NCBI GenBank assembly: GCA_021154515.1
Contig: JAJKIL010000142.1
Coordinates: 1-35,121, forward strand
Source of the DNA: Niastella sp.
GTDB lineage: Bacteria > Bacteroidota > Bacteroidia > Chitinophagales > Chitinophagaceae
Direction of reading: 5' to 3'
DNA length: 35,121 nucleotides
Shown: positions 2,146 to 35,121 of the stretch, piece by piece
Numbering within the stretch: the first letter of the stretch is position 1
Layout of the letters: each line of letters starts with the position of its first letter
The notes under the pieces: generated by a model
Told to the model about the DNA's origin: nothing
Databases searched by the model: none
What the model saw: only the letters and a program-made list of their open reading frames with translations
Position numbers and translations under genes: made by a program

Positions 2146-4080
2146 ATGAAACCTTTATCACTACCGTATTTACTTATTGTATGTATAATTACGTTTTGTT
2201 GTAATTATGCCCGGGCACAGAACCCAACGCTCCTATTGAGCAACAACCCTACAACCTGTCATGGTTCAGAAGGATCAATTACTTTTGGCGGCTTACTTCC
2301 CAATACCACCTATCAGGTAAGGTATTTTGAGAACGGTGTTCAAAAAGGCCCGGTTACTTTACTGTCAAATGTAACAGGACAGTTAACTATTCCCAATTTA
2401 TCAATGGGCGCCTATCGCAATTTTACCTTCACCGGCGGGGGAACAACCCTGTCTTATGTTGCTGGTACTCCGCTGTCAGATCCGTTCCTGCCCCCACCTG
2501 TATTCAATTTCCTGCCTTCAACTATATGTCTGGGTGATCCGGCGCCGACGCTGCCAACCACTTCTGACAATGGTTATAGCGGAAGCTGGAGCCCGTCCAC
2601 AGTAAGTAACACCCAAACCGGCACTTATACTTTTACGCCAACAATCACATGCGCCGATCCGGTTAGCATTACTATTACGGTGACCCCAAAAGCACCTGTA
2701 ACATTCCCGTTTGGAACTGGCCGGGTATTATGCAATACCGGCCCGGTACCAACATTAACCAATACATCGATAGAGGGTATTACCGGTAGCTGGAGCCCGG
2801 CGGTTGTAGACCCTACCCGCTCCGGTACCTATGTATTTACACCCACCGTTCCACCACCAGGCTGCCTTACCGGCACCACTTTTACACTTACGGTGAACCC
2901 GCCCATAAAACCGTTGTTCTCATTTGGCAACAGCCAGTCTATTTGTACAGGCGGTGGCGTTCCTACCCTGCCTAATCAATCGCAAAATAACATTACCGGA
3001 AGTTGGAACCCGGCCGTGGTTGACCCCAATAATTCCGGCACCTATACATTTACGCCCGATCCCGGTCAGTGCGCTATACCTGTCAACTATGTATTGACCG
3101 TTAACCCTATTATTCCTCCTGTATTCAGCATTTTTCCCAATTCAAAAGATACCATTTGTAGTGGTGATCCGGCTCCGGTTTTACCCGCAGCCTCCGACAT
3201 TGGACAAACCGGCACCTGGACGCCGGCAGTTGTTAGCAATACAAAAAGTGGAACGTATGTCTTTACAAGCACCAGCGATCCCTGCGCGCCACCAACAACA
3301 GTAACCGTAACAGTGAAGCCGATTATTACACCTGCATTTACCTTCGGGCCTTCTCAATCTGTTTGTATAAATATCAATCCACCGGTTTTACCCGGTGTTA
3401 GCAATAATGGCGTAAATGGAACCTGGAGCCCGGCCATTGTAGACAATCAAAATACAGGCACGTATACTTTTACGCCGGCAATAAAGCAGTGCGCTGTAGG
3501 CGCCACCTTTAATTACCAGGTGAACCCGATCCCATCTTTCGTTACTACAAAAAAAGATACGACGGTATTAGATGGCGATATATTGCCCTACTACGATTTC
3601 CCGGTAAACATTCCGGTCACCGGTATAAACTGGACCAATAATAACACCGACATTGGGCTGACAGCATCAGGTTCAGGCGTAGTGCCTTCGTTCACGGCAA
3701 CCAATATGACCAATGATTCCATTACCGGCGTGGTTACTGCCACCCCGTATGTGAATGGTTGTATGGGCGCCGCCCAATCGTACAAAATAACCGTGAAGCC
3801 GCGTTATAAAGACATTTATGTACCTAATGTGTTTTCTCCCAATGGGGATGGCAAGAATGATCTTTTGTACGTGTACGGCAATTACATCGCTACGTTAGAG
3901 ATGCACATCTTTAACCAGTGGGGGCAGAAAATGATAACCATAACCGATAAGAAACAGGGTTGGGACGGCAAGTTCAAAGGAAGCTTCCAGCCTGTGGGGG
4001 TTTATGTGTATGTATTAAGGGCTACAACTACAGACGGCAGGCAGTTGAACATGAAAGGCTCCATTACTCTTGTACGATAG
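2146..4080 (+). CDS. Gliding-motility-associated C-terminal domain protein with about five internal Ig-like repeats
   Basis: Signal peptide; repeated GSWSPAVV...SGTYTFTP units; C-terminus YVPNVFSPNGDGKNDLLYVYGN...MHIFNQWGQKM...WDGKFKG..QPVGVYVYVLRA is the type B CTD (CHU_C/gliding motility). Confidence 0.9.
   Translation: MKPLSLPYLLIVCIITFCCNYARAQNPTLLLSNNPTTCHGSEGSITFGGLLPNTTYQVRYFENGVQKGPVTLLSNVTGQLTIPNLSMGAYRNFTFTGGGTTLSYVAGTPLSDPFLPPPVFNFLPSTICLGDPAPTLPTTSDNGYSGSWSPSTVSNTQTGTYTFTPTITCADPVSITITVTPKAPVTFPFGTGRVLCNTGPVPTLTNTSIEGITGSWSPAVVDPTRSGTYVFTPTVPPPGCLTGTTFTLTVNPPIKPLFSFGNSQSICTGGGVPTLPNQSQNNITGSWNPAVVDPNNSGTYTFTPDPGQCAIPVNYVLTVNPIIPPVFSIFPNSKDTICSGDPAPVLPAASDIGQTGTWTPAVVSNTKSGTYVFTSTSDPCAPPTTVTVTVKPIITPAFTFGPSQSVCININPPVLPGVSNNGVNGTWSPAIVDNQNTGTYTFTPAIKQCAVGATFNYQVNPIPSFVTTKKDTTVLDGDILPYYDFPVNIPVTGINWTNNNTDIGLTASGSGVVPSFTATNMTNDSITGVVTATPYVNGCMGAAQSYKITVKPRYKDIYVPNVFSPNGDGKNDLLYVYGNYIATLEMHIFNQWGQKMITITDKKQGWDGKFKGSFQPVGVYVYVLRATTTDGRQLNMKGSITLVR
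2498..3540 (+). repeat. About five ~65-70 aa tandem repeat units within the surface protein
   Basis: Translated repeats of 'xFxFGxSQSICxGxxxPxLPxxSxNGxxGSWSPAVVxxxxSGTYTFTPxxxxCxxxxxxxxTVNPxxxP'. Confidence 0.85.
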
Positions 4081-4110
4081 ATAACCAGATCACTGTAACG
4101 ATACTTTACA

Positions 4111-5136
4111 ATGAATAAAAAATTGATTATAAAAACCGTTTGGTGTACGGCCTGGTTGCTGCTGATAACTGTCAGTAGATCAGTTGCACAAACAGACCCG
4201 CACTTTACACAACAATATACATTTCCCATGTATTTGAACCCGGCGCTTACGGGCAGCGCCGATGGTGATTACCGGGCTTCGGCCATTTTCAGGAACCAAT
4301 GGGGCAGCGTTACCAACCCTTATCGCACCATGGGCGTGTCATTCGATGCACGCACCAACAAGAATGTAGCCCTGGGCATTAACCTCCTGAATCAATCGGC
4401 TGGCGATGGAGGTTTTAATTACCTCACCTCTTCCTTTTCTTTTGCCTATACCGGGGTTAAGTTCGGACCTTCGTTAAACCATCATATTGTGATGGCTATG
4501 CAGGGTGGCATTATTAATCGCCGGGTGAACAAATCAAAATTCAGATGGGGCGATCAATGGGATCCTATTACCGGCTACAACCCTAATATGGCAACAACAG
4601 AAACGTTTGCCCAAACTTCTTCAACGGTGCTGGATATTGGCGCCGGGGTCATGTATTTTGATGGGGGGGCCGATAAAAAATTCAATCCGTTCGGCGGTTT
4701 TTCCATCTATCATCTTAACAAACCCAAAGACCCCATCATCAGCACCCAAAGTGCGGAGTTAAACACCATTCCAATGCGGTATTCCATTCATGGCGGGGTA
4801 AGTTATAATATATCAGATCGTACCCGTATTGTGCCGCACGTTATGTACATGCGCCAGGGCACGGCTTCTGAAACCATGGTTGGGGTGTATGGACAAATAA
4901 ACGTAGATGCAGTTACTGATTTTATGATAGGTGGTTATTACCGCGGTAAAGACGCGGTAGCGCCGTATGTTGGTATTGATTATAAAAACTTTGTTATTGG
5001 CCTGAGCTATGACGTGAATAATTCAAAGCTCGGCTCTATGACGAAAAATGTAAACAGCTTTGAACTGAGCCTGTCTTACATTAAACGATCGGGCACAAGG
5101 AACGTTGTTGATTTTATTCGTTGTGCAAGACTTTAA
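4111..5136 (+). CDS. PorP/SprF family type IX secretion system membrane protein
   Basis: QTDPHFTQQYTFPMYLNPALTGSADGDYRASAIFRNQWGSV..PYRTMGVSFDA is characteristic of PorP/SprF. Confidence 0.92.
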   Translation: MNKKLIIKTVWCTAWLLLITVSRSVAQTDPHFTQQYTFPMYLNPALTGSADGDYRASAIFRNQWGSVTNPYRTMGVSFDARTNKNVALGINLLNQSAGDGGFNYLTSSFSFAYTGVKFGPSLNHHIVMAMQGGIINRRVNKSKFRWGDQWDPITGYNPNMATTETFAQTSSTVLDIGAGVMYFDGGADKKFNPFGGFSIYHLNKPKDPIISTQSAELNTIPMRYSIHGGVSYNISDRTRIVPHVMYMRQGTASETMVGVYGQINVDAVTDFMIGGYYRGKDAVAPYVGIDYKNFVIGLSYDVNNSKLGSMTKNVNSFELSLSYIKRSGTRNVVDFIRCARL

Positions 5137-7291: not shown

Positions 7292-7495
7292 CTACCCCTT
7301 CCGCAACCGCTTGCGCAACAAATGTCCCTTCCATAACCAAAAACCTGAAATAACCACCAACGGCATAATGATCCATTTTACCACCATGGCCTGGCGCGGC
7401 ATGGTGGCTAATGGACCGTATATATAACCAAGAATGGGAACGCTCAGCACTATATGCAACCATCGGATTATCTTTCTTTCGGTTGATGCTTTCAT
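7292..7495 (-). CDS. Small hypothetical membrane protein (67 aa)
   Basis: MKASTERKIIRWLHIVLSVPILGYIYGPL...VKWIIMPLVVISGFWLWKG, two predicted TM segments; intact ORF. Confidence 0.65.
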   Translation of the reverse strand: MKASTERKIIRWLHIVLSVPILGYIYGPLATMPRQAMVVKWIIMPLVVISGFWLWKGHLLRKRLRKG

Positions 7496-7549
7496 AAATA
7501 AAGTTTTTGAGTTTGCTTCTAACCTAATAACTTATGAAGCAATGAACGT

Positions 7550-7801
7550 TTACTTATTTAAAGTAGAATCACTATGTAATCGATCACAACGTTCATTATA
7601 GTAATGCGTCCGGTATCTGTTCCAACCAAAACGCATACTCAAACCGGTAGAAGCAAAAAACAACACGATCACCAGGATGGCTGCTATCTTACTAAAAACA
7701 CGGAGGGTTCTTCTTTGAGAAAAATTGCCGAAAATGGCGCCAATGATAAATACCATACTAGCTATAAAAAGCACGCGGAATAAAATGAATAACGGGAACA
7801 T
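7550..7801 (-). CDS. Small hypothetical membrane protein (83 aa)
   Basis: Two hydrophobic segments: MFPLFILFRVLFIASMVFIIGAIFGNF...IAAILVIVLFFASTGLSMRFGWNRYR. Confidence 0.6.
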   Translation of the reverse strand: MFPLFILFRVLFIASMVFIIGAIFGNFSQRRTLRVFSKIAAILVIVLFFASTGLSMRFGWNRYRTHYYNERCDRLHSDSTLNK

Positions 7802-7835
7802 AAAATAGAATTTAAATTAAGAAATAGCGTTTCGA

Positions 7836-7895
7836 CCCTTCGACTGCGCTCAGGGCGCTCAACGCTTTTTACCAACTCTTCGACTTCGCTCAGAG
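7836..7895. repeat. Two imperfect copies (40-bp offset) of an intergenic (C/T)CCT-TCGACTxCGCTC-AGGG-type element
   Basis: 7836-7855 CCCTTCGACTGCGCTCAGGG; 7876-7895 CTCTTCGACTTCGCTCAGAG. Confidence 0.85.
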
Positions 7896-7970
7896 TCTGA
7901 TACAAAGCTATACCTGTTGCATAGCCGTTCCCGGGGTGAGTAGAGGAAGAGGTAATATGTGTAGATGACC

Positions 7971-8678
7971 TTACTTATTGAGGGGAAGCACCGCTTCTAC
8001 CGCTGCCCGGTAACTTTCACTGAGAGGTAATTCAACAGCGCCCAAACAAATGAGATCGCGTTTCACCGCGGTTACTTTATCGGCAGCAATGATGTAGGAT
8101 TTATGGATGCGCACCAGCCGGTAAGGGAGTAATTTATCTTCCAGCGCCTTTAAACTCATTTTGGTGATCACCGGTTTGGTGGAAGTTGTTAAGTATATCT
8201 TCACATAATCTTTCATGCCTTCTATATACACGATCTCGTTGATATTGATCTTGACCTGGTTGTATTCTACATATACAAAAAAAGAAGCGGGCAGCTCTTT
8301 GAGAGTAGTTGTTTTTTGCTGTAGCCTGAACAATTCCTGCGCCTTGTTACAGGCTTTTAAAAAGCGTTCAAACGAAACCGGCTTTAACAGGTAGTCAACA
8401 GCAGCCAGCTCAAAACCTTCCCAGGCATGCTCTTTATACGCCGTCACAAAAATGATCATGGGTGGGTGTTGCAGCGATTGTACGAATTGAATGCCATCCA
8501 GTCCGGGCATTTGAATATCGAGGAATATAAGATCTACTTCTTCACGGTGTAACAGTTCAGTAGCTTCAATAGCGTTTTTACACCGGCCCACCAATTGTAA
8601 AAAGGGAACCCGGCTGATGTTATCAACCAGCAGGTCCAACACCCATTTTTCATCATCCACGGCAATACAACGCATCAT
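7971..8678 (-). CDS. LytTR-family response regulator
   Basis: Receiver (MMRCIAVDDEKWVLDLL...VDLIFLDIQMPGLDG..FVTAYKEHAWEGFELAAVDYLLKP) plus LytTR domain (IVYIEGMKDYVKIYL...LVRIHKSYII). Confidence 0.95.
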   Translation of the reverse strand: MMRCIAVDDEKWVLDLLVDNISRVPFLQLVGRCKNAIEATELLHREEVDLIFLDIQMPGLDGIQFVQSLQHPPMIIFVTAYKEHAWEGFELAAVDYLLKPVSFERFLKACNKAQELFRLQQKTTTLKELPASFFVYVEYNQVKININEIVYIEGMKDYVKIYLTTSTKPVITKMSLKALEDKLLPYRLVRIHKSYIIAADKVTAVKRDLICLGAVELPLSESYRAAVEAVLPLNK

Positions 8679-9679
8679 AACAGTTTACAATTTAAATGAA
8701 CTGAATAAATACCGTCCTTATTGTCAATGTTCAATTGGTAATTGTTCGCATACAACAACTCCAGCCGGTTTTTTACATTATTAAGGCCAATGCCTGAATG
8801 TTTGTCCTTCGACTGGTTGGCCGGGTTATAATTATTCACCACCCTAAAGTCGAGCTGTTGTTCTATTACGGTAAGAGTTATTTGTATAAACGGTTCCTTT
8901 ACCATTCCAATGCCGTGCTTGAACGCATTCTCGATAAATGGCACCAGCAACATGGGCTCTATCATTCCTTCGGGATAATCGTTTTGAATGTTCAATGAAA
9001 TGGCCACATCCTCCCCAAACCGCAATTGCTGCAGGGACACATAATTCTCTATTTGTTCTATTTCTTTGACAATAGCAATCTTTTCTTCATTGCTTTCATA
9101 TAACATGTAGCGCAACAACTCCGACAACCGGATCAACGATGGCTCCAGCAGGTTCGATTGCAAACGAGCCAGGGACACCATATTGGTGAGCATATTAAAT
9201 AAAAAATGCGGGCTCACCTGCGATCGTAATAATTTCAGCTCAGCATCGAGCCGTTGTGCCCGCGCTTCTTTTTCCATTCTTTCAAACCGAATACGGTCAT
9301 ACACCAGCCGGTAAATAATGCTGGCAAATAAAAAGGGCACTAATGGAAAAAAGATCAGTCGCCGGTTGAAGGTAGTGAACTGAAAACCCGGGTGCAGCAG
9401 CTGTAAAAAGAAAACCTTGGCAAAGCCCGAAAGACAAACGATAGCAATCAGACAGATAATATACAACCACCAGGTTCTTTTATTCAGCAGTTTGGGATAC
9501 AGGTAAAATGCATTGAAATAAAATAGCCCGATGTGATAAAGCGTGGTCAATAAGTAAAAAGTAGCCGGCAACCCAAAGAACTCCTGGTCCCACAACATAA
9601 TGCCGGGTACGCCTAACAGCAATATCCATACTGCTGCATGGATCCATTTGAGGGAAATAACCCGTTGTGCCGGTTTCAT
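8675..9679 (-). CDS. LytS/YehU-family sensor histidine kinase
   Basis: SQVSPHFLFNMLTNMVSLARLQ..., PMLLVPFIENAFKHGIG, SGIGLNNVKNRLELLY; 4-bp overlap with the regulator gene. Confidence 0.93.
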   Translation of the reverse strand: MKPAQRVISLKWIHAAVWILLLGVPGIMLWDQEFFGLPATFYLLTTLYHIGLFYFNAFYLYPKLLNKRTWWLYIICLIAIVCLSGFAKVFFLQLLHPGFQFTTFNRRLIFFPLVPFLFASIIYRLVYDRIRFERMEKEARAQRLDAELKLLRSQVSPHFLFNMLTNMVSLARLQSNLLEPSLIRLSELLRYMLYESNEEKIAIVKEIEQIENYVSLQQLRFGEDVAISLNIQNDYPEGMIEPMLLVPFIENAFKHGIGMVKEPFIQITLTVIEQQLDFRVVNNYNPANQSKDKHSGIGLNNVKNRLELLYANNYQLNIDNKDGIYSVHLNCKLL

Positions 9680-9790
9680 CCCTGAAATTAAGATTTTGGC
9701 TGACTGGAACCAAGGAGGAGTAGATAATCGGAGAAAATGAGTAGATGAAAAAAAATACAGGTCGCAACACTTTTTAGTTGGAGCTCCACA

Positions 9791-10387
9791 TTAAAGCTCG
9801 GAGTGCAACGTATCGGCTACCAGTTGACGGGTTGTTGCCGTAAGGTCGGCCATATCCTGTAAGGAAATGATTTTATCGAGGTAAACTTCCTTGTTTACAG
9901 CAGTCATGATCTTTTTATGCATAGCTTCCTGTAGCATTTCAATGCGCTTTCTCGGCTCATATGAGCGGATATAAAAAAGAAGGGATTCCGTTTTATTCCA
10001 GCGTTCAACGATCTTGCCATAGAACAATTCTGCCACCTCGGGGTCGTGCGTCATCAAATGCTTTAAAAAATTAAGATCGTAGGAACGGATCTCGGTGGCG
10101 GTTAATGTTTTGCTGAATTCATTGAAGGGGGCATCGGGCAGGAAGGCCAGGTTGCCAAAAAACTCTCCTGGCGTTACGATCTCATACACGCATTCCTTTC
10201 CCTTGGGCGATAACCGGCCCAGTTTAACAGCACCGCTGATGATCTCGTAAATGTCGGTAAAACGCTGGGGCGCCCCGTACAACGAGGTTCCTTTTCTTAA
10301 TGTATGAAAGGCACTCTTCTCTTTTACCCCCGGAATATTCTTTGATACGAGGTAGTTGTACAGGCCCATTTCTGCTACCTTAGACAT
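9791..10387 (-). CDS. Crp/Fnr-family transcriptional regulator
   Basis: Cyclic-nucleotide-binding-like fold (GTSLYGAPQRFTDIYEIISGAVKLGRLSPKGKECVYEIVTPGEFFGNLAFL) and short C-terminal HTH. ATG at 10387 preferred. Confidence 0.85.
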   Translation of the reverse strand: MSKVAEMGLYNYLVSKNIPGVKEKSAFHTLRKGTSLYGAPQRFTDIYEIISGAVKLGRLSPKGKECVYEIVTPGEFFGNLAFLPDAPFNEFSKTLTATEIRSYDLNFLKHLMTHDPEVAELFYGKIVERWNKTESLLFYIRSYEPRKRIEMLQEAMHKKIMTAVNKEVYLDKIISLQDMADLTATTRQLVADTLHSEL

Positions 10388-10588
10388 ACGCAATTTTACA
10401 GGGAAATTTGAACTTGTGCAAACCTGTGCAAAAAGATTTCAGCAAGGAGGTGACTGATAACAATTAATTAACATTATTTATATATAAAAGAGGGTCTGCA
10501 GCAGGCAATTAGCCTTCGGCATAGCAAATAGACTAGGGTTTTTAATTACTGTCTTTGTTACTGCACTCCATCTGCCGGCAGGGTTAAA

Positions 10589-13000
10589 TCACTCATTCCT
10601 TAACGACTGCACCGGGTTTGCCCTGGCAGCTTTTACTGACTGCCAAGCTATCGTAAGCAAGGCAACACCCACCGTGATTAGGCCGGCTTCCAGAAATATA
10701 ATTGGCCCAACGGAAACGCGGTAGGCAAAATCTTTCAACGATTCATTCATGGCCCAGGTAGAAAGCGGAACGGCAATAACGATCGCGATCAGTACAAGTT
10801 TGATAAAATCCTTCGACAGCAATACCACAATGCCGCTTACCGATGAACCCAGCACTTTGCGAACGCCTATTTCTTTCACCCGTTGCTGCGCCATAAAGGT
10901 AGACAGTCCCAATAAACCCAAACACGCTATACAAATGGCCAAGCAGGAGAAGAAAGTGAACAGTTGCCCGAAATGCTGATCGGCCTGGTATTGTGCGTTG
11001 AACGATTCATCCAGGAAATGATACATAAACGGACGCTGTGGCGCCATTTTATCCCAGGTTGTTCTTACATGAGCCAGGGTGGATGGAATATTATCGCCTT
11101 TGATAGCAACTGAAATGCGGCTCAGTGCATTAGGATATCCATAGCGTAAAGTGAGCGGTTCTACCGCCTGGTGCAGCGACCGGAAATTGAAATCTTTTAC
11201 CACGCCAACGATGGTTCCCTTCCTGCCCCACTGGTCAAATTTTCTTCCTACGGCATCGGCAGGATTGGTATAACCATACAATTTTGCCGCCGCTTCATTA
11301 ATGATCATACCCTGCGCACTATCGGTGAGGTGCGTACGGGAATAGGCGCGGCCTGCAATCAATGGAATATGATACAGAGGTATGAAGTCGAAATCTATTT
11401 CATAAATAAGCGGGATGCGAAAACCCATTTGTCCATCGGGCGTTTGAATTTGTGTACCTGCATTGGGCAGAAATTCACCGGGCACGGCACGGGAAGCCGC
11501 CACGGAAACAACGCCGGGTTGATCTGCAATGGCTTTTTTAATGGCTTCAATATTTTGCTGTACTTTGGAATCGTCTTCAAAGTTGATGATCAACATTTGA
11601 TCTTTCTTAAAACCCAGATCGTGGCGGTTCAGGTATTTCAATTGGTTGAATACAATGATGGTGCCTGCAATGAGCGCTATAGATAAAGTGAATTGAAAAA
11701 CAACCAGTGCCTTGCGCAACGATACGCTCCCGCTTGCCGGATTGAATTTTCCTTTTAATACCGAAATAGCCCTGAACCCAGATAAGAACCAAGCCGGGTA
11801 AATGCCCGCTCCTATGCCTACAACTACCGCAAAACCGGCCATCGCAATAAACAACCAGGGGTTAAAGAAATTTACATAGGCAATCTCTTTTCCCGATAGT
11901 CTTTCGATCAGTGCAATGCCTGGTTTTGCCAATACGATCGCAATAATAGCAGCGGCCAGTGATAACAATATAGATTCAAAAAGAAATTGCCACATGAGGC
12001 TTGTAGGCCGTACGCCCAGCACCTTGCGAACACCCACTTCTTTTGCTCTTTCCAGTGAACGGGCGGTAGACAAATTCATGAAATTGATACAGGCGATCAG
12101 CATAATGAAAATTGCGATGCACAAAAACAGGGATACATTCAGCAGACTGCCCGTTGGGCCTGGCTGGCGGATTGCCAAAGAATGCAGGTACGCATCGGTC
12201 ATTTTTTCAAATTTGATCCCATACCCTTTATCATCCGGATTACGTCTTTTTACAAACTGATCTGCTTTTGCTTGCAGCGACTTTATATCAGTATTCTCTT
12301 TTAACAACAGGTACGTATAAAAATCAACATACCCCCACCAACCAAAGATCTCTTCCCTGAACTTGTGCATAGTTGTCATCGAGATGAGCCCGTTGAAAGT
12401 GAATTGCGAATTCGGTGGCACATCTTCCATAACACCGGTGACCATAAAGTTGGTCTGGTTATCTACCTGTAATGCCTGCCCTACAGGATTTTTATTACCG
12501 AAGAATTTCTGCGCCACTGATTTGGTTAGAACAATACTAAAAGGAGCGGTCAGGGCCGTATGCGGATCTCCATTGATCATTTTCCAGCTGAATACATCAA
12601 ACGCGGTAGAGTCCATAAACAACAGGTTATCCTGTTGAACGCGTTTGTCGCCATTTTGAAGCAGCAAGCTGTTCGGGCTCATAAACTGCACTACCCGCTC
12701 AATTTCGGGAAAATCGGCCTGCAGGGCCGGCCCCAGGGGCGCACAGCCCCATACCTGGTAATCCTTCGGGGTAGCTGCCACTGGTTTTGTACCTGGCTCT
12801 ACATTGCGAAAAGTTTGCACCACGCGGTATATTCTGTCGCGTTTGGTATGATATTGATCGTATGAATTTTCGTGGTACAGGTACACACTAATCAGCATGC
12901 AACAGGTCATTCCAATGGCCAGTCCGGCTACGTTTATTAACGTATAGAATTTTCTTTTCATCAAATTGCGCCAGGCGATCTGGAAGTAATGACGGAACAT
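10589..13000 (-). CDS. ABC transporter permease, FtsX/MacB-PCD type (two permease modules)
   Basis: MFRHYFQIAWRNLMKRKFYTLINVAGLAIGMTCC..., ...FMNLSTARSLERAKEVGVRKVLG..., ...STFMAQQRVKEIGVRKVLGSSV...; start at 13000 preferred over 13129. Confidence 0.92.
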   Translation of the reverse strand: MFRHYFQIAWRNLMKRKFYTLINVAGLAIGMTCCMLISVYLYHENSYDQYHTKRDRIYRVVQTFRNVEPGTKPVAATPKDYQVWGCAPLGPALQADFPEIERVVQFMSPNSLLLQNGDKRVQQDNLLFMDSTAFDVFSWKMINGDPHTALTAPFSIVLTKSVAQKFFGNKNPVGQALQVDNQTNFMVTGVMEDVPPNSQFTFNGLISMTTMHKFREEIFGWWGYVDFYTYLLLKENTDIKSLQAKADQFVKRRNPDDKGYGIKFEKMTDAYLHSLAIRQPGPTGSLLNVSLFLCIAIFIMLIACINFMNLSTARSLERAKEVGVRKVLGVRPTSLMWQFLFESILLSLAAAIIAIVLAKPGIALIERLSGKEIAYVNFFNPWLFIAMAGFAVVVGIGAGIYPAWFLSGFRAISVLKGKFNPASGSVSLRKALVVFQFTLSIALIAGTIIVFNQLKYLNRHDLGFKKDQMLIINFEDDSKVQQNIEAIKKAIADQPGVVSVAASRAVPGEFLPNAGTQIQTPDGQMGFRIPLIYEIDFDFIPLYHIPLIAGRAYSRTHLTDSAQGMIINEAAAKLYGYTNPADAVGRKFDQWGRKGTIVGVVKDFNFRSLHQAVEPLTLRYGYPNALSRISVAIKGDNIPSTLAHVRTTWDKMAPQRPFMYHFLDESFNAQYQADQHFGQLFTFFSCLAICIACLGLLGLSTFMAQQRVKEIGVRKVLGSSVSGIVVLLSKDFIKLVLIAIVIAVPLSTWAMNESLKDFAYRVSVGPIIFLEAGLITVGVALLTIAWQSVKAARANPVQSLRNE

Positions 13001-27813: not shown

Positions 27814-28887
27814 TTATACATATTTGTAACAGACGGCATTTATGTTCATGCCTGCGCCCACTGATGCAAAAAGTATAACATCGCCCTGGTTCAAATGCTG
27901 ATCTTCTATTTCACCTTTCCGTACCAGGTCGTACAACGTAGGAATGGTGGCTACTGAACTGTTGCCTAACCATTGAATACACATGGGCATAATAAATTCA
28001 GGCGCCTCTTCTATACCATAAAGTCCGTACAATGCTTTAACTATTGCCTCATCCATTTTCTCATTGGCCTGGTGGATAAATATTTTTTTTATTTCTTTAA
28101 TAGATACCCCACTTTTATCAATACAAGCCTTCATTGCAGCAGGTACATACTTTAAAGCATACTCATATACTTTCCGGCCCTTCATTTTAATAAAGCGGGT
28201 ATCAGAACCCGTTTCAGGCGCATAAGAAGTATTAAAATTAATAAAATTCAGTTCTTCCATGCTGTCTGACCGGGTACAGGTACCCAATATACCTCCTGAA
28301 AGTGCTGTTTCTTTATTCTCAATAATACAGGCGCCCGCGCCGTCTGAAAAGATCATACTATCCCTGTCATGCACATCTATTACCCTCGACAATGTTTCCG
28401 TCCCGATCACCAAACAGGTGCCGGCCATACCTGATTTAATATAAGAATAGCCTTGTATTAAACCCTGCAACCAGCCGGGGCAACCAAATAAAATATCGTA
28501 TGGGACGCAGGATGAGTTACGAATTCCCAACAGATTTTTAACCCGTGAAGCCAGGGAGGGTACCGTATCGGATTGTATGGTGTGGGGTTGAATATCACCA
28601 TAATTATGCGCTACAATGATCTGGTCGATCTGTTCAGCATCAATGCCGGCATCTGCTATTGCCGATTTTGCGGCTTGCGCTGCCATTTTCGAGGCGTTGA
28701 ACTCTTCTGGTGCATATCGTCTTTCCCTGATACCAGTGATCGCACGAAATTTCTCAATTACGTCGGGCATTGGTACGTTGATGGGAAGGTTATTTTCAGT
28801 GTAGAACTTTCCCGGAACGAAATCGCTATTTTTTTTAATAACAGGAGGAATATAACATCCGGTTCCGGTAATAACAACATTTGACAT
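27814..28887 (-). CDS. 3-oxoacyl-ACP synthase III (KAS III)-family protein
   Basis: Cys (LFGCPGW), His (FIHQAN), Asn (WLGNSSVATI) of the KAS III triad present; ATG at 28887 preferred (TTG at 28896), with AAGGAGG upstream. Confidence 0.9.
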   Translation of the reverse strand: MSNVVITGTGCYIPPVIKKNSDFVPGKFYTENNLPINVPMPDVIEKFRAITGIRERRYAPEEFNASKMAAQAAKSAIADAGIDAEQIDQIIVAHNYGDIQPHTIQSDTVPSLASRVKNLLGIRNSSCVPYDILFGCPGWLQGLIQGYSYIKSGMAGTCLVIGTETLSRVIDVHDRDSMIFSDGAGACIIENKETALSGGILGTCTRSDSMEELNFINFNTSYAPETGSDTRFIKMKGRKVYEYALKYVPAAMKACIDKSGVSIKEIKKIFIHQANEKMDEAIVKALYGLYGIEEAPEFIMPMCIQWLGNSSVATIPTLYDLVRKGEIEDQHLNQGDVILFASVGAGMNINAVCYKYV

Positions 28888-28908
28888 ATTTTCCAAAACC
28901 TCCTTAAA

Positions 28909-30622: not shown

Positions 30623-31522
30623 TTAGGAAACCGTTAAGGCTTTCTCCGCCGCCCGCTTCTGTTGTACCAGCAACCCGTGTAACACTTCTGTAGACAACCC
30701 ATGCAGCGTAAGCCGGAATGCCGCAGACGTTGTTGGCAATGGCACCATGGGATGTTTGTTGTTCAACGCAACCAGTTTCTCCGGACAGTCCAATATGGTA
30801 GCAGCGTATAAGCCAATCACTTCATCCAGCTGCAGTGAATTGGAAGCGCGCCAGAAATCATTATCTGTTAAAAAGAACTGGTATACCGGGGTGAAGATCT
30901 CAATAGCATTGGCCAGGTCAAGGCAGTTGGTCCATTTGTCACGGAAAGGTGCAAAAGGAAAATTGTCATCGATGGTGATGGCGTTAAAATTAGGTTGATC
31001 CACCTTTTGAATGGTTACCCCTTTTTTAGCCATGGCGTTATTCAGGTTGATGATGAAATTGTACAAATTCAGGTCGTGCTGCAGGAACAGGTTATCCTTA
31101 ACCGCATTCAGATCCATGGGTTTTAACGGGTGCATGGGAATATCATCGATATGATGCACATTGTCTTTTATAAACCGCAACACTTCCGAACCCAGCACGA
31201 AATGGCGAAGAATGAGGTAGTTGGCCTCCGGGGTAATAAAATATTTCATGCCGAGGTACAGGCTCCTGTGCAGCATCTTCGGCGCATTGATCACATTCGG
31301 CATAATGGCCTTGAATACCTGTAGTAACATAATGCACAGCCTTGCAAACACCCGTACAAAAGGATACAGGAACTGTTTTGTTTTGCGGCTGCTATCGTAC
31401 AGGAAAGCCGCTTTGGCATCGGGACTGAACGGAATGCTTTTATCGAGGAACAGGGCATGCCAGTGACTCGGGTCCCTGGGATTGTTTTCCAGTTGCTCAA
31501 AGTATTCGCGTTTATGTAACAT
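30623..31522 (-). CDS. Uncharacterised mostly helical 299-aa protein, operonic with the KAS III-HDO fusion
   Basis: Intact ORF starting 11 nt after the stop of the upstream gene; family not confidently recognised. Confidence 0.8.
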   Translation of the reverse strand: MLHKREYFEQLENNPRDPSHWHALFLDKSIPFSPDAKAAFLYDSSRKTKQFLYPFVRVFARLCIMLLQVFKAIMPNVINAPKMLHRSLYLGMKYFITPEANYLILRHFVLGSEVLRFIKDNVHHIDDIPMHPLKPMDLNAVKDNLFLQHDLNLYNFIINLNNAMAKKGVTIQKVDQPNFNAITIDDNFPFAPFRDKWTNCLDLANAIEIFTPVYQFFLTDNDFWRASNSLQLDEVIGLYAATILDCPEKLVALNNKHPMVPLPTTSAAFRLTLHGLSTEVLHGLLVQQKRAAEKALTVS

Positions 31523-31533
31523 AGAAATTGGTT

Positions 31534-33411
31534 TTAGTAATTACCCAGCTCCTGTAATTGCATGGCATACAGGCGGGCAGTTATTTTTGCGGTTTTAACA
31601 ATTCTGGCGGCTATGGCTTCCTGTAACAGGTCAGATTGGATGGCCTTTTCAAAACGTTCAAAATGGTTATCGTTGGCATCGCTTGTTTCGTGATAAATAA
31701 AGAACGAAACCTGGTCATCCTGCAATTGCAATTGTTCCTGAATAGCGCGACCCCATTTACCTGCCAGCCTGTTGCCCAGTCCTTCTATAATAAACATCCC
31801 ACCGAGCAGATCAAAGGGGTTGGGTTGACTGGCCTTATGAAACATAAAGGCGCTCAATGCTTCGCTGCCGATATTCTTTTCACCCTGGCGTAATTCCTCG
31901 TAAGTACCGCCACAGGCAAGATAATTCTTTTCCAGGATCTGGTAATCGCGGTGCTCATCGCGGGAATGCGTGATAAAAGCAGAGCGGATATCAAAATATT
32001 CAATGGTAATATTCGAGGCGGCGCGGGCAATCCATTGCGAACCGTCAATTACCTGTTGCCGCAGGTTCACCAGTAATAATTTATAATCTTCCATACTGAG
32101 CGACCCATTATAGATCTTTTGTACAACAGGCACCTGACGCAAAGAGGATTCAAAATCAACCCAAACAGAAGTGAGTTGTCGTACCAGCCATTCCTGTACA
32201 GGCATGCCGCTGGTGCGGATCACAGGCGCTTCAATTGCATCATTGGTATGAATAGAAAGCGCAGGCGCAGCCGATGTTGGCGCTACCACGGTCAACTGCA
32301 TAAAGGAAGTAATGAAACGGCCGCTCTCCGGCACCATACACAACAACTTTTGTCCGGCTTGTAGTTTGCCGGAATACAACAGTTCTTCCAGCATGAGAAA
32401 GATAGAAGCGGCGCCTACGTTGCCCCTGGTATGCAGGTTGGTAAACCATTTTTCTGGTGGAATGGCACAGCCGCCTTTTTGCAACAGGTCTACGATCTGT
32501 GGCCGGAAGTATTCTGAAGAATAGTGACACAGCAACCAATCCAACTGGTTGGGGTCAACGCGTCCTTCATCAATTAAATTAAAGAAATGCTGAACACCCA
32601 GATGTACAATGTTGTGAACAATTTTCAGGTCCTGCTTCAGGTTGATAGCCGCATCATTATCGGCCTCGCTGAAAGAGCTATAATCTATCCAACTGGCTTT
32701 CCCATTGTTTTTATTCTTACCTGCGTACATGCACACATCATATAGATGGGCATGTGAGCGCAGATCGATCCAATCTATTTGTAAACTAAACTGGTGACGC
32801 GCAGGTTGGTTTTCCAGCAACAGCGCCCCTGCGCCATCAGACAGCATCCAGCGCAAAAAATCTGTTTCCAGGTCCAACTGGTTCTTTTCCTTCACCATTG
32901 TCTGCTGTTCAAAACGCTGCGCTTTAAACATGCGACTGGGCAATTCGCCGGCACAGGCAACGGCTTTATCGGCCTCGCCGGTTCTCATATGCAGCCAGGC
33001 GTTTTTTATGGCCATCATCCCGGCAGCGCATACGCTTTGGTGACTGGCAATTTCGCATTGCTCCAGTTGCGCATCGGCATGCACCATGCTGGCAAAACCA
33101 GGCACGGGCAGATCACCCTGGGTGGTAGCGGCCGACAAAAATCCGATCTCTTTTTTGGCGACACCAGCTTTTTGTAAACAACTTTGAATAGCAGCCGCCG
33201 TCATGCCACTTACGGTATGGGTAGTTTGCTGATTTTTATCGATAGCGTAATAGCGGGAGGTAATTCCATTCTGCCTGAGCATGTTTTGTTTGGTGCGGGA
33301 AGGTTTGCCAAACAGGTAGCCAAGGTATTCTTCCACTTCATCATTAGAAACGGGCGCGCCGGGCAAATACGCGCCGGCAGCCGTAATGTAAACGGGGTTT
33401 AGGGAACTCAT
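31534..33411 (-). CDS. Fusion: KAS III (DarB/StlD-like) ketosynthase + C-terminal haem-oxygenase-like (HDO/TENA-like) domain
   Basis: N-terminal ~390 aa: Cys (HQSVCAAGMM), His (LLCHYSSEYF), Asn (TRGNVGAASI), FLRWMLSDGAGALLLEN. C-terminal ~220 aa: ITHSRDEHRDYQILEKNYLACGG, GGMFIIEGLGNRLAGKW, YHETSDANDNHFERFE. Confidence 0.85.
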   Translation of the reverse strand: MSSLNPVYITAAGAYLPGAPVSNDEVEEYLGYLFGKPSRTKQNMLRQNGITSRYYAIDKNQQTTHTVSGMTAAAIQSCLQKAGVAKKEIGFLSAATTQGDLPVPGFASMVHADAQLEQCEIASHQSVCAAGMMAIKNAWLHMRTGEADKAVACAGELPSRMFKAQRFEQQTMVKEKNQLDLETDFLRWMLSDGAGALLLENQPARHQFSLQIDWIDLRSHAHLYDVCMYAGKNKNNGKASWIDYSSFSEADNDAAINLKQDLKIVHNIVHLGVQHFFNLIDEGRVDPNQLDWLLCHYSSEYFRPQIVDLLQKGGCAIPPEKWFTNLHTRGNVGAASIFLMLEELLYSGKLQAGQKLLCMVPESGRFITSFMQLTVVAPTSAAPALSIHTNDAIEAPVIRTSGMPVQEWLVRQLTSVWVDFESSLRQVPVVQKIYNGSLSMEDYKLLLVNLRQQVIDGSQWIARAASNITIEYFDIRSAFITHSRDEHRDYQILEKNYLACGGTYEELRQGEKNIGSEALSAFMFHKASQPNPFDLLGGMFIIEGLGNRLAGKWGRAIQEQLQLQDDQVSFFIYHETSDANDNHFERFEKAIQSDLLQEAIAARIVKTAKITARLYAMQLQELGNY

Positions 33412-33540
33412 ATGTCAAAATTAGTTTATTGCCGCTGCAGTTATGCTATTTATGCAGGGGGAATTAAAGAATATACCCACATAAGTCGCTAAAATGCAGA
33501 TACGTTACTTAAACAAATGTTAAGTAGAAACAAAAAAAAA

Positions 33541-33564
33541 GCCCCCGACTGAATTGTCGGGGGC
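33541..33564. terminator. Bidirectional Rho-independent terminator between hxsC and the ketosynthase fusion gene
   Basis: A9 - GCCCCCGAC-TGAATT-GTCGGGGGC - T9; functional for hxsC on the minus strand. Confidence 0.9.
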
Positions 33565-33589
33565 TTTTTTTTTGTTTATAAATTATGAG

Positions 33590-34726
33590 TTACTCAAATG
33601 GCCGGATATGCTCGCTGTGTTTTTTCAAATTCCAGGTAAACAAACCACCGCAATCGGATAATTTGGTGCACCGGCTACATTCCGGTAAATAACTTTGCTT
33701 CCAGTCGGAGATCGACTTCCTCGCATATTTCCATAACTGTTCGGGCAACACGCACAGCTGCGTATTGTAAATAGACACATGCATTCCCTGCCCTGCCAAA
33801 AATTCTACCGCTTCACCCAACTCATTCATATAATCATGCGGATCTATCCATAACTTTTCAATATTGTGCGGAGTATAACCAACGTATTCCAATCCCATGA
33901 AAGTCACGTGTTCGGCAAACGGCAGGTTCTTATAAATATACCGTGCGAGCCTTGTAAGCCGGGGAATTGATTGTTGATGCAATACCACCCTGATCTCGAT
34001 CCGTTGATTATGCCGGGCCAGGTTATGCAATCCTACAATGGTTTGATTAAAAGCATCGCAGGCCTGTACAATATAATCATGCACCTGGTAATAATCTGAA
34101 TAAACCGGAATGCCCAGCATCAGGCGGTCGTATTCCAGTGCACCAAGCCGCTCAGCCATGGCTGGCCACGCAAAGGAGCGACCGTTTGTAAGCAGGTGAA
34201 TTTCCGTATCTGGTAAATTGTGTTTTATGTTTCCGAGCATTTGGAAAAAAAGTTCTCCCATTAAGGTAGGTTCACCGCCGGAAATACATAGTTCAGGACA
34301 GTCTTTAGGGATCATCGGGATCGCCTTCTCATAAATGCTATACAGCGTGGGAATATCATTCCTGTTCCTCGGTGGCTGCGAGCACATGAGGCAGTTGCTG
34401 TTACACCTTTCCGTTGCAAGAATGGTATTATGAAAAGAATTAACGCGGTAGAGTGTCTTAATATTCCCATCATTCCCAACGGCTACCAGGTCACCTTCAA
34501 ACAAATGGTCTAGTGAAGGCACTTTATAAACCGCAGGATAGCCATTCAATTTGCCATCCTGGTTAGAAGAAGTGAGTATACAATTAAAACGGTCTGCGTT
34601 GATGTCTTGCAGTTGTTCATCACAAATGAGGATGGCATTGTTGTCTCTTGTATGCGGGTCTCTGGTGACACGGCCAACAATAAAATCCTGGATGTTTAGC
34701 GAAGTGCCTTTTGTACGTAGTAACAT
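33590..34726 (-). CDS. hxsC: His-Xaa-Ser system radical SAM maturase HxsC
   Basis: Radical SAM motif in ATERCNSNCLMCSQPPRNRND (CxxxCxxC), CISGGEPTLMG, C-terminal CSRCTKLSDCGGLF; matches recalled HxsC sequences. Confidence 0.88.
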   Translation of the reverse strand: MLLRTKGTSLNIQDFIVGRVTRDPHTRDNNAILICDEQLQDINADRFNCILTSSNQDGKLNGYPAVYKVPSLDHLFEGDLVAVGNDGNIKTLYRVNSFHNTILATERCNSNCLMCSQPPRNRNDIPTLYSIYEKAIPMIPKDCPELCISGGEPTLMGELFFQMLGNIKHNLPDTEIHLLTNGRSFAWPAMAERLGALEYDRLMLGIPVYSDYYQVHDYIVQACDAFNQTIVGLHNLARHNQRIEIRVVLHQQSIPRLTRLARYIYKNLPFAEHVTFMGLEYVGYTPHNIEKLWIDPHDYMNELGEAVEFLAGQGMHVSIYNTQLCVLPEQLWKYARKSISDWKQSYLPECSRCTKLSDCGGLFTWNLKKHSEHIRPFE

Positions 34727-34727
34727 A

Positions 34728-35121
34728 TTAAAGAACAGGTTTTACCCAACTTTCAAAAATGGTTTTAATTTTTTTATCACTGTCCATCAGCTCTATCAGG
34801 TAACGGATGATCTCCATATTACGCTGACAAAACGTACTGGTTGGCCGGTACCCGATCATGTCGCCCTTGGTGGCATGGTGATGAACCGGATCGGCGCCAC
34901 AATACGACTGAAAAGCGCAGTCGGAACAGCCAGGCAAACTTTCATTAGTGCCGGCAGCAACTATCTGGCGGGCTTTTTCTCCATACAATAAGTTTTCATA
35001 GCTATCTGTATCCAGGTGGCCCAGTTGAAAAGTATAATCCTTCATTTCAGCCAGCATACGGCTTTCATCACTGGCAAAAACAGCCCCATCGTAGTTAAAT
35101 ACGATCACATTGGTAATGGAA
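34728..35121 (-). CDS. hxsB: His-Xaa-Ser system radical SAM maturase HxsB, C-terminal part (5' end outside window)
   Basis: ...SITNVIVFNYDGAVFASDESRMLAEM... then SPASM-like CSDCAFQSYCGADPVHHHATKGDMIGYRPTSTFC; 1-nt gap to hxsC. Confidence 0.82.
   Translation of the reverse strand, partial: SITNVIVFNYDGAVFASDESRMLAEMKDYTFQLGHLDTDSYENLLYGEKARQIVAAGTNESLPGCSDCAFQSYCGADPVHHHATKGDMIGYRPTSTFCQRNMEIIRYLIELMDSDKKIKTIFESWVKPVL

Follow-up and report, generated by a model that had tools for sequence, protein, structure and literature searches.

A truncated HXS (His-Xaa-Ser) radical SAM locus at a contig end from a bacterium close to Niastella

The window, that is, the whole stretch of 35121 bases that was analysed and the entire contig C142 of its assembly, ends inside a gene, hxsB, which is followed by hxsC. 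Are these two genes part of a genuine HXS (His-Xaa-Ser) locus, and what might their products do to a peptide carrying HxS repeats? Curated NCBIfam models (TIGR03976-TIGR03979) are available for all four proteins of the system, and about one and one-third of the four genes are present in the window. We conclude that the locus is a real, correctly named and truncated member of the known HXS system. It resembles that system in an HxsC that scores over threshold, in the C-terminus of HxsB and in the hxsB-hxsC order of complete Bacteroidota loci. It differs in that hxsA, hxsD and most of hxsB are missing from the window, and in that the HxsA of its nearest relative is only about 100 residues long and scores under the HxsA and HxsA2 cut-offs.

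Genes at the contig end

The complete hxsC gene lies at 33590-34726 on the minus strand and encodes 378 residues. The protein matched TIGR03977 with 360.8 bits (cut-off 267.9, E 3.9e-108) and the Pfam family PF04055 (Radical_SAM) with 46.2 bits (cut-off 29.5). The codons of its radical SAM CxxxCxxC motif (C108, C112 and C115) are found at 34382-34405 (minus strand), and these three residues, together with C325, C350, C353 and C359, are invariant in a 32-sequence alignment. C350, C353 and C359 are encoded close to the 3' end of the gene, at 33650-33679 (minus strand), and the codon for C325 is at 33752-33754; these four cysteines probably ligate an auxiliary iron-sulphur cluster.

The last 130 codons and the stop of hxsB are present at 34728-35121 (minus strand), the 5' part having been removed by the contig end. 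The 130-residue fragment aligned with positions 341-466 of the 466 in TIGR03978, the C-terminal quarter of the model, at 168.8 bits, a score that falls under the cut-off of 370 bits, set for the full-length protein, because the fragment covers only a minor part of that length. The naming of both maturases in an earlier note on this DNA is supported by the family models. The hxsB frame remains open up to the contig end with no stop interrupting it, and its translation contains SPASM-type cysteines, namely a CxxCx5C motif (34899-34928) and a fourth cysteine (34827-34829, both on the minus strand), which are kept in Niastella vici and may have a role in binding a cluster.

A single base, 34727, separates the hxsB stop from the hxsC ATG, in agreement with the earlier description of two adjacent genes with a 1-nt gap. 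The strong terminator placed at the end of the locus in the same note was recovered by a terminator scan as an intrinsic terminator 3' of hxsC (33530-33575, minus strand), with a 20-pair stem, a 6-base loop and A/T runs on its flanks. It closes the operon after hxsC, and could act in both directions.

The assembly consists of 495 contigs and is rated 61% complete. Searches of all of it with the HxsA, HxsD and HxsB family models gave no match above chance for hxsA, hxsD or the remainder of hxsB, and matches to 2 kb of Niastella vici operon DNA and to the Niastella vici HxsD protein were at chance level only. The one exception, on contig C442, was a different radical SAM protein. Since the assembly is so incomplete, and does not contain the first two thirds of hxsB either, the absence of hxsA and hxsD is uninformative about the organism.

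Complete operons in relatives and their distribution

We scanned the HxsC of the window against 85,462 species genomes and obtained 80 loci. The best of these was that of Niastella vici (L016), whose HxsC is 86% identical to that of the window and whose HxsB is, at its C-terminus, 91% identical to the window fragment over 128 residues. This locus is a complete and uninterrupted hxsA-hxsD-hxsB-hxsC operon, with hxsA at 7674-7973 (99 residues), hxsD at 7985-8359, hxsB at 8584-9999 (by its listed start) and hxsC at 10001-11158. The gap between hxsB and hxsC is one base, as in the window. Full-length HxsB scored 602.2 bits (cut-off 370), and HxsD 69.1 bits (cut-off 50). The genes hxsA and hxsD, which the earlier note expected past position 35121, gave no match in the organism's own assembly but occupy exactly the corresponding place in Niastella vici.

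The 80 loci and three plasmid records were then surveyed with profile searches and a rule for HxS density, and 67 of them had enough flanking sequence. Among these 67, hxsB was present in 66, hxsD in 63 and an ORF with HxS repeats near hxsC in 64; none of the 8,295 other ORFs of the same loci satisfied the repeat rule. Three of the four loci that were negative for hxsD do contain hxsB (L086, L092 and L093); all three are from Pseudomonadota, for which the profile used to find HxsD may be too narrow. In most Bacteroidota the order is A-D-B-C. Six Pseudomonadota loci, like the Bacillota ones, have the repeat gene 3' of hxsC instead. Two loci hold one hxsBC pair with two or three distinct HxS-repeat genes around it, of both the short and the long type: L030 from Mucilaginibacter corticis (HxS-repeat genes at 11140-12117 and 7383-7616) and L032 from Pedobacter sp. 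Bi126 (11164-12374).

We are therefore highly confident, on the basis of the sequence comparisons, that the two genes in the window form the 3' end of an operon with the order hxsA-hxsD-hxsB-hxsC, from a bacterium close to Niastella (Chitinophagaceae). By extension from the relatives, an HxsA of about 100 residues and an HxsD of about 124 residues are predicted to be encoded just past the contig end, and this HxsA would begin with a hydrophobic segment, carry a KPxPVLKLN-type motif and end in a tail of HxS repeats. The truncated copy in the window adds little past its complete relatives. For the question of the product these relatives offer the practical route, above all Niastella vici, whose A-D-B-C operon is compact and has a putative substrate of 99 residues.

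The HXS system is widespread, and the HxsC tree covers seven phyla plus a Leptospira plasmid. In this tree the window sequence groups with Niastella vici (support 100/96) and then with Puia (100/98), in a clade of 21 sequences, one of them from a Leptospira plasmid and the others from several families of Bacteroidota. An HXS operon is carried by the Leptospira interrogans plasmid pLiSL34 (L096). HxsC-like matches were found in 434 plasmid records, 333 of them from Klebsiella and 348 predicted to be conjugative; these matches are candidate HxsC proteins, and the weaker among them may be other radical SAM proteins. Within the family of the window the occurrence of HxsC is patchy, with 5 of 198 sampled genomes positive, the window's own included, and it was not found in the two other genomes of the same genus. 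This patchiness is likely to reflect horizontal transfer.

Patchiness, and the lack of a match to hxsA or hxsD in the assembly, would also be expected if this copy were a decaying remnant in which hxsB had been shortened and hxsA and hxsD lost. However, it is the end of the contig, rather than a stop codon, that cuts hxsB, and the incompleteness of the assembly accommodates the missing genes. Neither frame is interrupted, and the two share 86-91% identity with those of an intact operon, with the cysteines conserved. We consider decay very improbable.

The repeat substrate and its putative modification

In the clade of the window HxsA is mostly short, at about 100 residues, with the repeat close to the C-terminus, and in many other Bacteroidota it has about 210-300 residues. 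A PG_binding_1 domain was found at the C-terminus of the two long Bacteroidota proteins scanned (L034 and L035) and of one from Burkholderiaceae (L087); there was no Pfam peptidoglycan-binding match in the roughly 100-residue protein of Niastella vici. The latter scored below the curated cut-offs of HxsA (49.4 bits against 121.65) and HxsA2 (30.3 against 48), and also below those of HxsA3 and HxsA4, so that it would go unnamed by all these models. A KPxLVLKLN-like stretch stands directly before the first His in HxsA proteins across the Bacteroidota and relatives, and several Pseudomonadota have LxPLN in its place. This conserved stretch ahead of the repeat core resembles a recognition sequence. 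Cysteine is absent from the listed HxS-repeat stretches. In an HxsA-like protein of Calothrix (L073, 11272-12000) the peptidoglycan-binding domain is replaced by a C-terminal part resembling TftA, the hormogonium tapered terminus protein (39.9 bits, under the cut-off).

Structures were modelled for HxsD and HxsC from alignments in which the rows from plasmid records had been left out. Residues R82, R93 and A100 of HxsD are invariant among 44 sequences. By sequence, HxsD had no match among solved structures (best E 0.21). Its model (pLDDT 86.9) has a beta-alpha-beta-beta-alpha order with a long last helix, and HxsD models as a ferredoxin-like fold. No PDB match to the model reached E <= 0.001; the best was a circularly permuted ribosomal protein S6 without an edge strand (E 0.017), and further matches were ferredoxin-like designs. 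A winged-helix RRE fold is not indicated, as no RRE or PqqD protein was named among the 50 PDB matches listed. HxsD is perhaps a leader-binding partner. In the HxsC model (pLDDT 90.1) about 95 residues at the N-terminus make up a beta-rich domain, followed by the radical SAM core and the cysteine-bearing C-terminus. The solved structure closest to this model is that of the RiPP maturase SkfB (6efn, E 1.7e-9), and by sequence HxsC matched only distant radical SAM proteins.

The HxS motif and its putative maturases have been credited to Haft and Basu in a paper where HXS also figures as one cluster of a similarity network and in a comparison with their motif (PMC9062424). The system is also present in a gene list of a Pseudomonas aeruginosa genome paper (PMC8446631). 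In line with the earlier remark that little HXS biochemistry is known, only passing mentions, and no published biochemistry, product structure or function, were found in the literature searched, which omits most subscription papers. For comparison, in the TvgA/TvgB system (poly-cyclopropylglycine) a radical SAM enzyme likewise acts along a repeat-containing precursor (PMC9062424); this system differs in its TVGG repeat, in a reaction inside one Val side chain and in having a single radical SAM enzyme.

We infer that HxsB and HxsC modify HxsA with the assistance of HxsD, and that the product is exported. In such a scheme HxsD, or HxsB and HxsC themselves, would grip the LVLKLN stretch that directly precedes the first His. 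HxsB, a radical SAM protein with SPASM-type cysteines, and HxsC, a radical SAM protein with its C-terminal set of four cysteines, would then work repeatedly along the HxS units, and the reaction may link His with the Ser at position i+2, in the manner of three-residue cyclophanes. The modified tail of HxsA would be exported, long HxsA proteins being held at the cell wall through PG_binding_1. If crosslinked or otherwise altered, the HxS array would represent a protein modification at repeat scale, and in some species the protein that bears it also has a domain for peptidoglycan binding.

A His-Ser i/i+2 crosslink is our leading guess, favoured tentatively, and by analogy, over oxidation of Ser or epimerisation. 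The triceptide or three-residue cyclophane enzymes (XncB, OscB, MscB, HaaB and YhhB) share with the HXS maturases a radical SAM domain with SPASM-type cysteines and a unit of three residues. His and Ser are both known partners in i/i+2 bonds; the radical SAM enzymes HaaB and YhhB form His(i)-Cbeta(i+2) bonds and MscB a Phe-Cbeta(Ser) bond (PMC11002830). The spacing of the HxS repeat permits a bond of this kind. In contrast to these enzymes, HXS has two paired maturases plus HxsD, and long repeat arrays, and HxsB lies outside their families. The Niastella vici HxsB scored 68.9 bits for YhhB (cut-off 445), 63.9 for GrrM (310), 32.9 for FxsB (370) and 31.9 for XyeB (450), which do not place it in a cyclophane-forming family, and the crosslink is a guess by analogy because HxsB stands outside the HaaB, YhhB and MscB families. 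Among the other NCBIfam families it scored higher against PapB (104 bits, the best; cut-off 340) and the sulfatase maturase family (82 bits), which argues against the crosslink in so far as family membership therefore gives it no support.

With the same locus and substrate, the chemistry could instead be epimerisation, or oxidation of the Ser residues of the repeat, without crosslinks, a possibility that we regard as somewhat doubtful. Anaerobic sulfatase maturases oxidise Ser. The closest solved structure to HxsB by sequence is that of one such maturase (4k37, E 1.4e-10), in keeping with the score for the sulfatase maturase family, but the core radical SAM/SPASM fold is common to many chemistries, so that this match leaves the reaction unfixed; moreover, the presence of two maturases and the strict recurrence of both His and Ser at every third residue suggest that both residues react. 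It is unlikely that HxsB instead makes thioether-like or other heteroatom bonds in the manner of PapB, with Ser or His replacing Cys. PapB-type ranthipeptide maturases form thioether bonds, and PapB is the top other NCBIfam family for HxsB, yet its score is far under the cut-off and the listed repeat stretches are devoid of Cys. Returning to the His-Ser crosslink, an elaboration that we hold to be rather improbable would make HxsD a new type of leader-binder. The exposed sheet edge of its ferredoxin-like domain would bind the conserved LVLKLN strand through strand addition, so presenting the HxS array of HxsA to the two maturases, and these would link every His with the Ser at position i+2. 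The product in the Chitinophagaceae branch that includes the window would be a short, unanchored form.

Genes beyond the terminator

On the far side of the terminator lies a gene (31534-33411, minus strand) for a 625-residue StlD/DarB-like beta-ketosynthase fused to a C-terminal Haem_oxygenas_2 domain (PF14518); its score for NF005293 was 422.7 bits, just below the cut-off of 450. We considered this gene as a member of the HXS locus and left it out because the terminator separates the two and the genome with the Niastella vici operon holds no match to it. Nor was there a match to the fused protein in the two other genomes of the same genus. A 39% match in genome G190 covers the ketosynthase part only. 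After the fused ketosynthase comes a gene for a DUF6999 protein (30623-31522), and a second gene, similar to beta-ketoacyl-ACP synthase III (27814-28896, minus strand), scored 196.9 bits and did not reach its cut-off of 249. The latter and the nearby fused ketosynthase possibly form one biosynthetic cluster. Towards the other end of the window, at 2146-5136 (plus strand), a protein with a CHU_C type IX secretion signal adjoins a PorP/SprF protein, and these are usual secretion genes of Bacteroidota.
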